The position numbers were made by a program, and so were the translations under genes. A model generated the notes under the pieces. It did not search any database. It worked only from the letters and a program-made list of their open reading frames with translations, and was not told the DNA's origin. This document shows positions 9,602 through 16,059 of a DNA stretch of 43,383 nucleotides, piece by piece; the first letter of the stretch is position 1; each line of letters opens with the position of its first letter. Source of the stretch: a virus; the IMG/VR virus record IMGVR_UViG_3300049733_000221, positions 1 through 43,383 of that record. One strand, 5' to 3'.

Positions 9602-9979
9602 CTAGCGGTTCCTTCCCTTCCCCTTGCCCTTGCCTGGGTTGTCTGGGTCGTGTCTCCCAGGATCGTTGCCGTGGCCCTTGTTCGCATCTCCCGTTGGGGG
9701 TTCCGGCGTCGAACCTCCTCCATTGTCGGGAGGGGTGGTCGTGCCGCCACCGGGCGGTTGGCCTCCTCCTCCAGGTGTCGAACCGCCGCCATCACCGTCT
9801 GGATCGTCTCCACCGGGATCGTCAGGCGGAAGTGGATTGTCGTCGTCACGCCGGACCGGCGGCCTCTGTTCACGCTGATGCTCCCGCGAATAGGTGGCGC
9901 ACTCGATGAGGAAGAACCGTTCCAGCCAACTGTCGCAGTCCTGCGGACCGGCCATGAGGATGATCAGGATGAGCCACAT
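9602..9979 (-). CDS. Pro/Gly/Asp-rich protein in the lysis region
   Basis: A 125-residue protein beginning directly after the TGA of the upstream gene and ending directly before the lipoprotein GTG. Residues 1-12 are hydrophobic (MWLILIILMAG). After ~40 residues it becomes an extended Pro/Gly/Asp tail with GGGSTP-type repeats and a basic GKGKGKGRNR end. It may be an inner-membrane or secreted spacer protein, possibly the i-spanin partner. An overlapping alternative frame (9598-9873) is also open; this frame is preferred because both its ends abut neighbouring genes. Confidence 0.5.
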   Translation of the reverse strand: MWLILIILMAGPQDCDSWLERFFLIECATYSREHQREQRPPVRRDDDNPLPPDDPGGDDPDGDGGGSTPGGGGQPPGGGTTTPPDNGGGSTPEPPTGDANKGHGNDPGRHDPDNPGKGKGKGRNR

Positions 9980-10195
9980 TCACTGCGGAGCCTCCCCGTC
10001 CTTGGCGAGGCATCCGTTGAGCAACGTCATCGCGGTCTGGAACCGCGCGTTGCTCCGCTCCGCCTCGCGCTGGCTGGCAACATAGACGAGAACGGCGAAG
10101 AGGGCCGCCAACAAAATCGCGGCGAGGCACGAGGGGTTGGTCTTCAAGCCCTCGACGGCTGCGGTGACGGCCTTGCCGGCTTCAGGCAGCGTCAT
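9980..10195 (-). CDS. Single-pass membrane protein, holin or inner-membrane spanin candidate
   Basis: A 71-residue protein: a 22-residue amphipathic N-terminus, one transmembrane helix (about 24-42, LAAILLAALFAVLVYVAS), then a charged helical tail (QREAERSNARFQ). This layout fits a single-helix (class III) holin or an i-spanin whose tail lies in the periplasm. It starts 14 bases inside the upstream gene and is followed at once by the Pro/Gly-rich gene. Context supports a lysis role; which one is undecided. Confidence 0.65.
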   Translation of the reverse strand: MTLPEAGKAVTAAVEGLKTNPSCLAAILLAALFAVLVYVASQREAERSNARFQTAMTLLNGCLAKDGEAPQ

Positions 10196-10400
10196 CCGCA
10201 GGCTCCGTCTCCGGCGGCGCGGTGCCGGCGATCTGCTTGGTGCCGGCCTTGACCTCTTCCATGTAGGCCGGCCACGGCGGCACGTCGGAGTTCACGCTGC
10301 CGATCCACCAGACGCTGTCGTCGTCGCCGATGGCCTTGATCGTGTAGGTGCCCATCGTCTCGTCGTGGACCCACTCTGCGCTGACGTATTCTGCTGGCAT
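10182..10400 (-). CDS. Small hypothetical protein between fibre and lysis genes
   Basis: A 72-residue acidic protein with ATG 10400 just after the stop of the fibre gene and GAGGA upstream. It contains a compact Trp-rich beta segment (DDSVWWIGSVNSDVPPWPAY) and a flexible acidic tail (ETEPADDAA). It could be a fibre chaperone, because small acidic genes after fibres often assist folding, but no family is recognised. A longer upstream start would run into the fibre gene. Confidence 0.65.
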   Translation of the reverse strand: MPAEYVSAEWVHDETMGTYTIKAIGDDDSVWWIGSVNSDVPPWPAYMEEVKAGTKQIAGTAPPETEPADDAA

Positions 10401-10401
10401 C

Positions 10402-11574
10402 TCACATCCTCGCGTTGGCGACCCAATGATAGGAGTACGGAGCCCCGACGACAGCGGCCCATTGCAAGCGCGCGGCCCCGGTGCCGCCGACAAAGCTGGT
10501 GATGCCGACATCGGTCCCGGCGCTTTCGTTGTGGATCATGCCGGATGCACCAGTGTTGCGACTGTAGGATGTCATGGAAGCCGCGACCCGCTTCGTTGTC
10601 TTGAAATTGGCGGTGACAAAATCGGACGCTGCCGTGGAGCAACGCTGGATGGAGAACATGCCGTTGCTTGCCACCGCTCCCGGCGCGATGTTCCAGTCGT
10701 AGCTCTTCTCGTAGTACCGCTGGCAGACAACCAGTTCGTCGGCCCAGGGCAGTTCCTTGTAGGCCGGCGCGACGCCCGTGTTGCCGGGATCGGCGTAGAG
10801 CGCGACATCGGCGATGTGCATCGAGTTATTGGCGACAGCCGCGTTGTTGGTGATGCCGGGACCGGCGAGGTAGTTGCCGGCATTCCAGCCAACGGCGGGA
10901 GCCTTGAAAGTCGAGCCGATTGAATGGGCGAAAGCGAGCGTCAGGGCTCCGGTGTTGGAAGCGAAGTTCCATGTCCCAGCAGTCGGCACCGGGATCGGCA
11001 CGACGACATCGGTCCAGCCGCCCGAGCCAAAAGCAGGCAGCGCGAAGTCGAAGACGAAGCTGGCGGTGCCGCCCCAGTCCCTGAGCGCGAGCGAGTAGGT
11101 GCCGGCTTGCGTGGCGCGGGCCTTGAAGCGCAGCACCGCCGGAACGGCGACCGTCTTGCCCCACTTCAGGGGATAGATGCGCCAGCCCTCGATGTATGTG
11201 ATGAGATTGGAGTAGGCACCGGCAGCGACGCTGGCGTTGGCGCTGTTGTTGCGGGTGTAGGCGAAATAGCGCCCGCTGTCGCCGTTGGCCGCGTTGTCGA
11301 AGAACGTCGCACCACCGATGGTGCCGGTCATGCCGCTGTTGTTGAGCATCCACTGGTCGGCGAGATAGTAGGCACTGCCGGTCACCTCAGTACGCTGCGG
11401 GTTCTCCTGAGAGATCAGCATCGAGCCGTTGACCAGCAGATTGTCATCGACGGCGATCGTCACCCTGCCGGTCGCATCCGGCACCCACGCGTAGCCGTTC
11501 CAGACATAGGCAGGCCCGCCGGTCGGCTTGAACACTTGCCCGGTGGACGGCGAGGAGGGGAAGTCGAACGCCAT
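10402..11574 (-). CDS. Tail fibre/receptor-binding protein, paralogue B
   Basis: A 390-residue protein, clearly homologous to its upstream neighbour: both start MAFDFPS, share a YVWNG/YVWDG N-terminal module, a central jelly-roll-like beta region (VPAVLRFKA / KPAVLRFNA), a CQRYY motif near residue 290, and end in ANARM. It is likely a distal fibre or receptor-binding tip for attachment to the host surface. It begins right after the stop of the paralogue. The two copies differ widely in the variable centre and C-terminal region, as expected for host-range determinants. Confidence 0.8.
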   Translation of the reverse strand: MAFDFPSSPSTGQVFKPTGGPAYVWNGYAWVPDATGRVTIAVDDNLLVNGSMLISQENPQRTEVTGSAYYLADQWMLNNSGMTGTIGGATFFDNAANGDSGRYFAYTRNNSANASVAAGAYSNLITYIEGWRIYPLKWGKTVAVPAVLRFKARATQAGTYSLALRDWGGTASFVFDFALPAFGSGGWTDVVVPIPVPTAGTWNFASNTGALTLAFAHSIGSTFKAPAVGWNAGNYLAGPGITNNAAVANNSMHIADVALYADPGNTGVAPAYKELPWADELVVCQRYYEKSYDWNIAPGAVASNGMFSIQRCSTAASDFVTANFKTTKRVAASMTSYSRNTGASGMIHNESAGTDVGITSFVGGTGAARLQWAAVVGAPYSYHWVANARM

Positions 11575-12681
11575 CTACATCCTCGCGTTGGCTGTGTAGT
11601 AGCCGGCTGCGTAGCAGGAGCCAGCGCCGACGGACGCGGCGTTCATGCGGAAGCTCTTCACGGCGGGAGTGCCATTGACGACCGCGCCGCTGGCATTGCC
11701 GTAGTTGAGGCCGCTCAGTGTAATCGAGGGTGAGGCGCGCATTTCGACCGGGTAATACAGCATCCCGTAGAAGCTGCGCGCGGTGGCGTCGAAGCCGATG
11801 GCGCTGAACACCCAGCCGTTACCCTCGCTGACGTTCTTGTGGTAGTAGCGCTGGCAGCGCGCCAGTTCGTCGGAGTAGTTCGGCGCTTCGTAGGGCGGCG
11901 CGAGCCCGGTGCCGTCAGGATCGACGTAGAGCCCCACGTTGGTGACGTAGAAGTCGTTGTTGGTGACGCCGATGCCGTTGCTGATGCTGGACGTGGCAAG
12001 CACGTTGCCTGCCGTCCACACGCCGGGAGCCGTCTGGTAAGACGTGCCGCAGGCGTAGGTGAAGACTACGGCTCCGCGCTGAGCGGTGTCTGCCGTCCAC
12101 GTCCCGGTGGTGCAGGGTGGGATCGCGAAGCTGAACTCGGCCCATGTCGCCGCCGCCAGCGTGAAGTTGAAAACGATACCAGCGGCGATGGAATTGTCGC
12201 GGACGGCAACACAATAGGTGCCCGCCGCGCTTGCGTAAGCATTGAACCGCAGCACGGCAGGCTTCGCGGCAACGGAGCCCCAGCGAAGATCGGCAAGCTG
12301 GAGCCCTTCCAGCGCGTGGTAGATAGAGGCGTAGTCGCTCGCAGCGATGGACGCATCAGCCGCAGTTACGAAGAAACGGCCAAGCGAACGCGCATAGCCA
12401 CCGCTGCTGGGGACGCGCTCGTAGCGCATGGTGCCGCCATTGGAGAAGGACGATTTCCATCCGTCGCAGAAATAGGTGTTGTGGGCCGTCACGATGCCTG
12501 CCGCTTCCTGATCGACATCGAAGCTCGGATTGAGGATCAGGTTCTTGGGGAGCGCCGTCCTCGGCACGGTGTTGGAGCCCGCCGCGACCTTCCACGCGAC
12601 GCCGTCCCAGACGTAGCTCGGCCCGCCCGCCGGGGCGTAGATGGTGCCGACTGTCGGGGCGCTGGGGAAGTCGAAAGCCAT
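11575..12681 (-). CDS. Tail fibre/receptor-binding protein, paralogue A
   Basis: A 368-residue protein, the tandem paralogue of the next gene. The N-terminal MAFDFPSAPTVGTIY and YVWDGVAWK form a short module probably used to dock on the large fibre. The body carries LNPSFDVDQE, a beta-rich carbohydrate-binding-like fold (PAVLRFNAYASAAGTY) and CQRYYHK. The C-terminus YAGYYTANARM matches YHWVANARM in the copy. The start codon shares its A with the stop of the upstream fibre gene. Role: attachment, by position and beta-rich composition. Confidence 0.8.
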   Translation of the reverse strand: MAFDFPSAPTVGTIYAPAGGPSYVWDGVAWKVAAGSNTVPRTALPKNLILNPSFDVDQEAAGIVTAHNTYFCDGWKSSFSNGGTMRYERVPSSGGYARSLGRFFVTAADASIAASDYASIYHALEGLQLADLRWGSVAAKPAVLRFNAYASAAGTYCVAVRDNSIAAGIVFNFTLAAATWAEFSFAIPPCTTGTWTADTAQRGAVVFTYACGTSYQTAPGVWTAGNVLATSSISNGIGVTNNDFYVTNVGLYVDPDGTGLAPPYEAPNYSDELARCQRYYHKNVSEGNGWVFSAIGFDATARSFYGMLYYPVEMRASPSITLSGLNYGNASGAVVNGTPAVKSFRMNAASVGAGSCYAAGYYTANARM

Positions 12682-14483
12682 CAGTTGCTCGCGATGTATA
12701 TGAATGAACCGATCAGGCGCGACGTGTTGGTGAAGTGGGTATCGTTCATCGTGCTAATCGACGCCGCGCTGTTCTGCGTGACAAGCGATATGGTCGAGGA
12801 GTTGATGCCGGAATACAGGCCGATGCTGCCGCCGCAGTTTGCCATCCCGCTCCAGTAGGGCAAGGAACAGCCGGCGTACTGGTAGGCGTTGTTGAACGGC
12901 ATGTTGGCGATGGTCGCTGCGCCGGTAGACGTGCCTTTCGCAGTGAGCGGAATATCAAACTGCAAGATCACCAGACGGCCGATTTTGACGTACTGGCCGA
13001 AGCGCGTTCCATAAGTCAGACCGACGTTGTTGCCGCCAAAAAAGATGACCGGCGTCCACGTCCCTTCCTCGTAGTCGTCCAGCGTGTTGACATCCGACGA
13101 CGGAACCTGCGTGGCGGGGAATACGAGGCCGGCGTTGACGCCGAGCGCTCCGGTCATCGTGCCGCCTGATATCGGCACGTAGTCGCCGGTCAGGGTGACG
13201 TTCGGCGCGATCCATTGCTGGGACGTGCCGTCGTCCACGTAGACGTAGAAGTTCCCGGTGTCGCTCTCGTACCAGATGTCGCCATGCACCGGGTTGGACG
13301 GCGGCGTGTCTGAGATCAGGGCCTTCTGGCCGGAGCCTCCGTTGATCTGCACCCACTGGCTGGACGTGCCGTCCGCGTACCAGATGAACAGGTTGCCGCT
13401 GTCGCTCTCCCACCACATCTGGCCGGGGTCGGGGCCGACCGGCGGCGTATCCGACATGATCGTCCCAGGAGGCACGTCCACCGGTGCCCAGGCGGCGTTC
13501 TGGCGGACGTATTGCTGGCCGTCGACGGGCGCTTCAGGGAAGGTGTTCGTCAGGTTGTAGGTGACGCCGTTGACGCGCGCGAACAGCCCGGTGGACGTGC
13601 CCCACATGTCACCGTCGGTCGGCGTCGTCGGCGCGACGCCAGCCGGCAACCTGATCGACGCCTGACCGGCAGCCGGCGTCGCCATCACCGGCGGCACGGT
13701 GAAGGTCTTCGCGCCGGTGAACTGCTGCGAGCCGTTCAGGTTCGCCGCGTTGTAGGTCGCGCCGTTCTGCCGCCAGGACAGGTTGGTCGTGGTCGTCCAG
13801 ATGTCGCCGTTCACCGGCGACGCCGGCGCTGCGCCGTGCGGGATGTTGAAACCGGCGGCACCGCCGGCGGATGCGGCGGTGTTCAACTTGCCGGTCATGG
13901 TGTCGCCGGCCTTGGCGACCTTGTCGGCGAGCGCCGTGTTGTTGGCGGCGATCAGCGTGTCCTGGTTGTCGTCGCGGGTGTCCTGGGTGGCGAGGTTGTT
14001 GGTGATCTGGCTCTGCAGGCCGGCGTCGGCCGACGCGCGGGTGCTGGCCTCGGTGGCGAGTGCCGCCGCTGTTGCGAAATAGGTCGAGTCCTGGCCGTCG
14101 AGATAGTCGGCGTCGAGGGCAGAGCCCGCCCCGTCCACCGGAAGAAGCTTGGCCAGGATCTGCGCGCCGGTGTCGGGGCTACCGGCGATGTCGGTGCCGG
14201 TGTCTACCCACACGCCGCCCTCGAGACGCCAGATGTGGTCGTTGGCGTTGTCGAGATACATGTCGCCGTCGGCCTGCCCAGGGAAGGAGACGGGCGCGCC
14301 GGTGCCGGTGTACCAGAGCGATCCTCGAGGCCCTGGGATGAGCTCGGTCGGGTTGAAGGCGGTGATCTCGACCAGACCGACGTCTGGGATCGGCGCGCCG
14401 ACCGGAACGATTGGTTGCTTCACCAGGGCGACGACCGACGCCGCCATCTTCTTTCCGCTCTCGATGATGACGACGTTGGTCAT
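12681..14483 (-). CDS. Large modular tail fibre protein
   Basis: A 600-residue protein. The N-terminal ~110 residues are likely tail-anchored. Residues ~110-210 have a coiled-coil feel (ALATEASTRASADAGLQSQI). Then come repeated modules of the pattern P-x-x-P-x-x-GD-x-W ending in a short beta hairpin: PASPVNGDIW, PTTPTDGDMW, PVGPDPGQMWW and PSNPVHGDIW. The C-terminal ~140 residues (EEGTWTPVIFFGG, YVKIGRLVILQFDI) match a trimeric fibre-tip fold widespread in phage fibres. The same modules head the two smaller fibres downstream. Confidence 0.85.
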   Translation of the reverse strand: MTNVVIIESGKKMAASVVALVKQPIVPVGAPIPDVGLVEITAFNPTELIPGPRGSLWYTGTGAPVSFPGQADGDMYLDNANDHIWRLEGGVWVDTGTDIAGSPDTGAQILAKLLPVDGAGSALDADYLDGQDSTYFATAAALATEASTRASADAGLQSQITNNLATQDTRDDNQDTLIAANNTALADKVAKAGDTMTGKLNTAASAGGAAGFNIPHGAAPASPVNGDIWTTTTNLSWRQNGATYNAANLNGSQQFTGAKTFTVPPVMATPAAGQASIRLPAGVAPTTPTDGDMWGTSTGLFARVNGVTYNLTNTFPEAPVDGQQYVRQNAAWAPVDVPPGTIMSDTPPVGPDPGQMWWESDSGNLFIWYADGTSSQWVQINGGSGQKALISDTPPSNPVHGDIWYESDTGNFYVYVDDGTSQQWIAPNVTLTGDYVPISGGTMTGALGVNAGLVFPATQVPSSDVNTLDDYEEGTWTPVIFFGGNNVGLTYGTRFGQYVKIGRLVILQFDIPLTAKGTSTGAATIANMPFNNAYQYAGCSLPYWSGMANCGGSIGLYSGINSSTISLVTQNSAASISTMNDTHFTNTSRLIGSFIYIASN

Positions 14484-15178
14484 CAGATTTCATCCACCAC
14501 CGTGACTGAGCCTTCGGCCAAGGTCGTCATGCCGGTCTCAACCCGGGTCAACCGGAGCCGCCACCAAGCGGCGTTGGGCAGCGGGTCGACCACCGCCTGG
14601 GGCAGCGTCAAGACGACGCTCGACGGCGCGGTGCCTTCGGTGACGACGAAGTCGGCGAGCACCGTTGGATCCGTCTGGCTCTTTTCGATGGAGGCGCTGA
14701 CCACCGACCCCGTCATGTCGAGCGGGATGGTCTTCTCGGTGTCCTGCCAGAGCTGGATGTAGAGCACGTAGTCGCCGCCGCGCTCGATGACGATGTCGAT
14801 CTGGTCGATGACGTCGGTCGGCACCGCGTCGAGGCCGGCGGCCGGGTACGGGATGATGACGCCGGAGGCGAACAGAGCCGGTCCGCCGGAGAGCGTGCCG
14901 ACGAGGCGGATGACGTAGCCGTTTGGATCGGTGAGCGTGTTGGCGGGGATCACCGCTCGCGCTTTGCCGTTTAAACGGTCGGTGCTCGGTGCCGGGAACA
15001 TCTGGATGTTGCCACCGGTGGTGCGCGGCTCGATCTTGATCTGCGCGGCGAGGTCTATCTGGTAGGGCGCGTCGTCCTGGTCCTTGAACAGGAAGTCAAT
15101 GATCGTCGGCAGGCCGATGGCCGCGCGCAGCGACAGAGGTGCCGGCTCGATCTCGTTGATGACGACGGTGCGCTTCAT
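14483..15178 (-). CDS. Virion protein with two beta-sandwich-like halves (fibre adaptor?)
   Basis: A 231-residue protein, beta-rich, with two similar-looking Ig-like halves: residues ~20-125 and ~130-231 (WQDTEKTIPLDMTGSVVSAS then WWRLRLTRVETGMTTLAEG). The second half resembles the N-terminal domain of BppU-type baseplate adaptors, which link fibres to the tail. It lies between the collar fibre and the large fibre with 4- and 1-base overlaps. It is probably structural; the adaptor assignment is inference. Confidence 0.65.
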   Translation of the reverse strand: MKRTVVINEIEPAPLSLRAAIGLPTIIDFLFKDQDDAPYQIDLAAQIKIEPRTTGGNIQMFPAPSTDRLNGKARAVIPANTLTDPNGYVIRLVGTLSGGPALFASGVIIPYPAAGLDAVPTDVIDQIDIVIERGGDYVLYIQLWQDTEKTIPLDMTGSVVSASIEKSQTDPTVLADFVVTEGTAPSSVVLTLPQAVVDPLPNAAWWRLRLTRVETGMTTLAEGSVTVVDEI

Positions 15179-16059
15179 GACTTGATGATCCAGAGCAAGG
15201 CGACGTTGTGGGGCCGGGTTTCGGCACCGCCGACCGGCTGAACGGTGACGGCGTGAGTGTGCGCGGCGGAGCGGCCTCCGGTGTTGCCGGAGACGCTGTG
15301 CGTGTGCGCGCCGTCGCTGGTCGTGGTCTTGGTCTGGTTGCCGGCGTCGGCGCGGTAGCCCGTCACCGCGAGACCGCCTGTCCCTGACATGACACTTGAG
15401 GCGTAGATCGTGAAATCGTGGTTATGAGAGCCTGCCGACGCTGCGGTGCCGGAGATGGCGTGGGTGTGGTCGGCGCTCTCGGTGCCGGTCGTGGCGGTGT
15501 GGGTGTGGCTCTCCAGATCGTCGGTCTGCACCGAGCCAAAGACGCGCGCCGGATCGAGCGTGGCGTTGTCGTTCCAGCCCCTGGGGAAACGTCCGCGCAT
15601 GTCGGGCAAGGCGAAGGTGGTCGAGCCATCGCCGGCACCAAAGGTTGTCCCGATGACAGCGAAAAGACTGGAGAAGGTGGCGCGGCTGACGAGCTGGCCG
15701 TTGCAGTAGAGCCAGCCGGCCGGCACCGATCCGCTCTTGGCATAAGGCATCATCATGCCGGGTGGCAGCAACAAGGAGGTCTTCGCCGCCTCGATGGCGT
15801 TGTCGACATATTGCTTGGTCGCCGCGTCGGTCGACGCCGTCGGCGCGCCCAGATTGACCAGCTTGTGGCCGGCCATCGGCAGGTCGGCGGTGGGCTGCGT
15901 CTTGCCTGTCTTGGTGATGCAATCCGACAGGCCGGAGGCGAAGTCGTTGTCGTTGGTGTCGTGGAGATCGGCGCGGATGGGTGTGTTTGCAGTAGCATCA
16001 CCCTTCCAGGAGTCGGCTCCACGGATTCTGGTGAAAGTGCCGGATGCGTCAAAGGGCAT
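15175..16059 (-). CDS. Tail collar-domain fibre protein with HxH metal-binding motifs
   Basis: A 294-residue protein starting at ATG 16059. Residues ~100-170 hold a phage tail collar domain (GWLYCNGQLVSRATFSSLF, DGSTTFALPDMRGRFPRG). Downstream are five HxH motifs (SHTHT, DHTHA, SHNHD, AHTHS, AHTHA). In T4 gp37-like fibre tips such motifs line the trimer axis and coordinate iron. KLVNLGAPTASTDAATKQYV is typical of fibre shafts. It is likely a short tail fibre or collar component. The frame stays open upstream, but the chosen start abuts the previous stop. Confidence 0.85.
   Translation of the reverse strand: MPFDASGTFTRIRGADSWKGDATANTPIRADLHDTNDNDFASGLSDCITKTGKTQPTADLPMAGHKLVNLGAPTASTDAATKQYVDNAIEAAKTSLLLPPGMMMPYAKSGSVPAGWLYCNGQLVSRATFSSLFAVIGTTFGAGDGSTTFALPDMRGRFPRGWNDNATLDPARVFGSVQTDDLESHTHTATTGTESADHTHAISGTAASAGSHNHDFTIYASSVMSGTGGLAVTGYRADAGNQTKTTTSDGAHTHSVSGNTGGRSAAHTHAVTVQPVGGAETRPHNVALLWIIKS

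Follow-up and report, generated by a model that had tools for sequence, protein, structure and literature searches.

Two adjacent minus-strand genes of the virus record IMGVR_UViG_3300049733_000221 begin alike, share core motifs, end alike, and differ widely elsewhere. Are they the products of a recent duplication, or do they have another history? The window, that is, the whole 43,383-bp stretch of DNA analysed here, has a podovirus-like gene set, which comprises a DNA polymerase, a terminase, a major head protein, and a portal (related to Mx8-type phages). The pair occupies exactly 10402-12681 and is part of a larger tail cassette at 9.9-16 kb, with tail collar, LtfC-like, and fibre genes directly upstream. 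The genes of this locus are as follows.

15175..16059, minus strand: P0005, tail collar fibre protein (PF07484, 1.7e-23)
14483..15178, minus strand: P0004, LtfC-like protein (PF23926, 4.1e-10)
12681..14483, minus strand: P0003, tail-fibre gene upstream of gene A, 600 aa, with a DDYEEGTWTP C-terminal domain and weakly anchor-like internal repeats
11575..12681, minus strand: gene A (P0002), 368 aa, transcribed first; anchor, CBM4-like jelly roll, and tip
10402..11574, minus strand: gene B (P0001), 390 aa, the downstream copy; anchor and body as in gene A, other tip
10182..10400, minus strand: 72-aa ORF (MPAEYVSAEWVHDE...), beginning one base past gene B

The stop codon of P0003 and the ATG of gene A overlap by 1 nt, and the stop of gene A abuts the start of gene B. 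Small ORFs that begin like the 72-aa ORF (MEYVSAEW, MAYVSCKY, MPYVSARY) come after the arrays of many relatives. Also past the array, on the minus strand at 9602-10195 of the window, lie an ORF with a likely membrane segment (9980-10195) and a proline/glycine-rich ORF (9602-9979), which are possible lysis genes.

Block structure of the two proteins

When aligned by BLASTP, P0001 and P0002 are 37% identical over 405 aligned columns (E=4e-54), far above chance, and the strings MAFDFPS, PAVLRF, CQRYY, and ANARM are found in both proteins at matching places. The sequence-only reading, which had described two neighbouring genes with a common start, core, and end, is confirmed in this respect. The similarity is distributed unevenly over three blocks.

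12583..12681, minus strand: gene A anchor, aa 1-33 (MAFDFPSAPTVGTIYAPAGGPSYVWDGVAWKVA), a predicted beta hairpin; the block is also found on unrelated proteins
11857..12549, minus strand: gene A jelly-roll body, aa 45-275 (CBM4-2, 4bj0, TM 0.76 by target)
11578..11856, minus strand: gene A tip, 93 aa from CQRYY to the C-terminus, with relatives in uncultured phages only
11476..11574, minus strand: gene B anchor, aa 1-33, from sequence and predicted structure
10726..11442, minus strand: gene B jelly-roll body, aa 45-283 (CBM4-2, 1k42, TM 0.67 by target)
10405..10725, minus strand: gene B tip, 107 aa from CQRYY to the C-terminus; the tip type is also found in L106 and Stenotrophomonas phages

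Identity is 63% between the anchors (aa 1-30) and about 36% between the bodies (aa 45 to CQRYY); past CQRYY, nothing but the last residues of the tips is detectably similar (E about 2). At the DNA level, the first and last codons are near-identical (17/18 and 16/18, respectively). A search for 20-nt repeats returns short matches only, indicating that no long DNA repeat is left by a recent copy event.

The FDFP-type anchor is also carried by 35 ORFs that lack the body, including one for a 785-aa protein of L004 that resembles a pectin-lyase fibre, and cyanophage fibre proteins carry it at low identity. Therefore, the anchor is a separable module. In L008 (5794-12095) and L005 (5947-12409), series of FDFP-anchored ORFs have no CBM-like body, which suggests that tail proteins of more than one kind use the mount. 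A search with the anchor profile finds no solved homologue. We considered a trimerisation motif like the T4 fibritin foldon and set it aside, as a search with the anchor profile returns no foldon at E<10. Residues 315-334 of the neighbouring P0003 resemble the T4 fibritin foldon at E 0.36-0.84, which is not significant. P0003 also has five weak anchor-like stretches (1.9-8.7 bits; the 95th percentile and the maximum of 300 shuffles are 1.7 and 8.9 bits, respectively). Residues 315-334 and the anchor-like repeats are possible trimerisation units.

Fibre family, arrays, and predicted fold

Both proteins match, in body and tip, the CQRYY-type tail-fibre C-terminal family (PHROG 4492/27782). In particular, P0002 matches phrog_4492 (tail fiber protein) at 5.5e-30, and P0001 matches phrog_27782 (annotated as function unknown) at 1e-11. 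The two proteins match fibre proteins of Synechococcus, Prochlorococcus, Methylophilales, Pelagibacter, and Acidovorax phages, mostly at 25-35% identity, and P0001 also matches Stenotrophomonas phage proteins. The cyanophage, Methylophilales, Acidovorax, and Ralstonia members of the family (PHROG 4492/27782/28838) have the same layout of jelly roll and CQRYY at 25-35% identity, and in the viral structure library the family, annotated as 'tail fiber', 'carbohydrate binding domain containing', or 'CenC-like', has the same fold. However, in those phages the block is often the C-terminal part of one long fibre, whereas the window has two short genes, each on a 33-aa mount. The phage spike GP13 (PDB 9t9r, three chains listed), a protein of 235 aa, matches the start of the body in sequence (E 7.7e-07) and, weakly, the E-L-x-x-C-x-R hinge, but it does not match the FDFP anchor.

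An A1-based scan of IMG/VR retrieves many relatives. The final A-R/E-L/M is present in 138 of 168 core ORFs of the relatives, so this ending and the PAVLRF-like and CQRYY-like strings are marks of the family. At least two consecutive ORFs with anchor and/or body are found on 43 of 85 distinct contigs and on 38 of the 48 that bear the anchor, with arrays of 1 to 5 genes; the contigs were retrieved with the fibre family, its anchor, or P0003 as query, and these counts describe relatives of the pair, not phages at large. The arrays of L093, L097, L103, L110, and L133 resemble that of the window in having 2-5 tandem genes with an FDFP-type anchor, a CQRYY body, and ARM or ARL ends, but they differ in tips and copy number, and some members have extra repeats or lack the body. 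In a profile of 61 relatives, the tip is the most variable block (entropy 2.83 bits, compared with 1.94 bits for the body and 1.21 bits for the last five residues). L103/L105, L104, L110, L117, and L122 have three-gene arrays, some genes of which cluster in the tree by position across contigs; these are older arrays kept in order, unlike that of the window. Prophage relatives in bacterial genomes amount to two weak loci and yield no host assignment.

Confident AlphaFold2 models of P0001 and P0002 (pLDDT 82.9 and 90.3, respectively) place a small hairpin at the N-terminus, then a jelly roll and, at CQRYY, a helix; the tip beyond is beta-rich and, in P0001, modelled poorly. Sugar-binding proteins lead the solved-structure matches of both models, CBM4, CBM11, CBM16, and CBM61 being prominent among them and CBM4 at or near the top (TM 0.67-0.76 by target), as expected for a CBM4/CenC-like jelly roll. 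The best viral structure matches are phage tail fibres, some annotated as 'Carbohydrate-binding, CenC-like'. The shared jelly-roll fold comes with only about 10-15% sequence identity to CBM families 4, 11, 16, and 61; neither protein reaches a Pfam CBM model, or any Pfam family at E up to 0.1, so it is by fold alone that they may work like a CBM. On that basis, P0001 and P0002 are probably CBM-like, sugar-binding tail proteins. The BLASTP, PHROG, and structural matches agree with the earlier description of homologous tandem genes of tail-fibre type. As such proteins with different tips, they make it plausible that the virion has two binding specificities. Mixed A/B trimers, which had been proposed as an alternative, seem less likely, because the tips have no detectable similarity and the bodies are only 36% identical.

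Age and origin of the pair

The pair had been read as a recent-to-intermediate duplication. At identical body residues, however, the two genes use the same codon with a frequency of 0.474, compared with 0.49 expected from codon usage, which means that the body is saturated at synonymous sites and that a dN/dS profile of the pair is uninformative. Each copy also matches proteins of many other phages better than it matches its neighbour: among 125 relatives, P0002 ranks only 16th as a match for P0001, and P0001 only 38th for P0002, with ranks that vary with the comparison (about 15-16 for P0002 and about 36-38 for P0001). The same is seen across all arrays, where the array mate is the best match for only 14 of 77 members. 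Together with the dissimilar tips, these comparisons speak against the proposed age; judged from the sequences, the duplication is not recent.

The branching order is less clear-cut. A careful maximum-likelihood tree places P0001 with L106 (100/92) and P0002 with L096 (99/92), as expected if relatives reveal two independent origins of the genes. However, a quicker tree of 126 rows groups P0001, P0002, and L096, and the AU test does not reject P0001 and P0002 as a sister pair (p=0.24). Separate nearest relatives and an independent origin of the two genes are favoured but not proven; exchange between phages in the origin of the pair is likely.

The duplication that the sequence-only reading had proposed, in the form of a lineage-specific tandem event followed by fast divergence of the tips, would account for the 37% full-length identity, the near-identity of the first and last codons, the grouping of both copies with L096 in the quick tree, and the AU result. 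We consider it unlikely, since each copy is better matched in other phages, the careful tree splits the copies with strong support for other partners, the synonymous sites of the body are saturated, and similar end codons are found throughout the family.

The shared end and the array

The shared end of each gene lies next to the start of the following one.

11575..11586, minus strand: GCG-AGG-ATG-TAG, the C-terminal ARM codons of gene A; GAGGA is 5 nt before the ATG of gene B
10402..10413, minus strand: GCG-AGG-ATG-TGA, the end of gene B; GAGGA is 6 nt before the ATG (10400) of the 72-aa ORF

Codon choice at this position is far from that in the rest of the genes. Among genes with a close downstream start, 67 of 70 use AGG for the terminal Arg (AGG makes up 9.7% of Arg codons elsewhere in them), and the preceding Ala is GCG in 78 of 84 (31% elsewhere in the same genes). 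When the next gene is defined more loosely than in these codon counts, a start follows within 12 nt in 118 of 124 genes; of these 118, 101 carry a Shine-Dalgarno 4-mer in the 17 nt ahead of that start, compared with 8% of random 17-nt stretches of the same genes and 12% after a synonymous re-draw of the tail codons. Family ends alternate between A-R-M/L and A-E-L, written almost exclusively as GCG-AGG and GCG-GAG, respectively; the two carry opposite charges and both retain the Shine-Dalgarno core, consistent with a constraint on the RNA. Nevertheless, L096 and L128 (AGA) and L173 (GAA) keep the end residues with codons that lack the motif, indicating that the peptide or common descent counts too. 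Body-less array genes often have Shine-Dalgarno-like ends of a different peptide. The spacing between motif and start carries no weight as evidence: the 37 cases tabulated with a spacing of 2 stem largely from an overlapping GTG taken as the start, and judging from the printed sequences, an ATG at -1 would give about 5. Genes without a nearby downstream gene were considered as a means to separate RNA from peptide constraint and set aside, as they number only 6 of 124, and inspection by eye shows a close start for L098 and L165 as well. The codon statistics suggest that an embedded ribosome-binding site, together with family-wide conservation, accounts for the shared ANARM end better than recent duplication does, and this putative site is arguably the most useful point of the pair.

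Taken together, we propose, with a probability of roughly two in three, that genes A and B are neighbours in a modular adhesin array, which belongs to the tail operon of a podovirus-like phage and in which every unit combines a mount, a sugar-binding body, a swappable tip, and an embedded ribosome-binding site. The mount (about 33 aa, a predicted beta hairpin) would attach the protein to the tail and/or start trimerisation. It would be followed by the CBM4/CenC-like jelly-roll body of the predicted structure, the CQRYY hinge helix, and a fast-changing C-terminal tip, which probably contacts the receptor. The copies would be old and the array reshuffled between phages by recombination, a history that is favoured rather than proven. 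The last codons (GCG-AGG-ATG or GCG-GAG-CTN) would hold the ribosome-binding site of the next gene, a role to which the motif statistics point, so that adding, losing, or swapping a unit would leave its neighbour's translation unharmed. The phage would probably carry both adhesins at once and thereby two sugar-binding specificities. More tentatively, at somewhat short of even odds, the units may form a self-contained cassette system, with the same mount throughout, end codons that also serve the next unit as its ribosome-binding site, and a charge swap between A-R-M/L and A-E-L that is set by the RNA.

Two other arrangements bear on how many working fibres the pair encodes. Only one gene might encode the working adhesin, the other being a decaying or rarely expressed spare with a tip that serves as a recombination reservoir; array size ranges from 1 to 5 among relatives, so single units seem dispensable, but both ORFs of the pair are intact, keep the anchor and the invariant residues of the body, and have a putative ribosome-binding site where they meet, and we regard a spare copy as improbable. 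Alternatively, the products of A, B, and P0003 might assemble into one mixed trimer or branched complex instead of two separate fibres, given the weak anchor-like repeats of P0003 (best 8.7 bits, close to the shuffle maximum of 8.9) and the branched tailspike complexes known in Ackermannviridae (PMC11414711). This, too, has little probability, as the anchors are short and have no obvious second docking domain, and the tips have no detectable similarity.

The modular adhesin array is the reading that we retain. Phages with several receptor-binding proteins are already known, so the A/B pair is an ordinary case of such an array, from a fibre family that is itself known. In the tailspike clusters of Ackermannviridae, several receptor-binding proteins per phage have conserved N-terminal and variable C-terminal parts, and exchange occurs by recombination (PMC8432352, PMC11414711). 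The array of the window resembles them in having multiple proteins with constant N-terminal and variable C-terminal parts, but those tailspikes are joined by XD/TD docking domains, none of which is identified in the window array. What is useful in the present case is the anatomy: a constant body and mount, a changing tip, and an end that seems to be set by the needs of translating the gene that follows. This anatomy explains why, in the CQRYY fibre family, similar genes with common ends should not be taken for recent duplicates. If the cassette system is true, phages would add, drop, and exchange receptor-binding genes in series, all of which would still be translated, and the anatomy of the array offers a simple test of how adhesin arrays grow and shrink.
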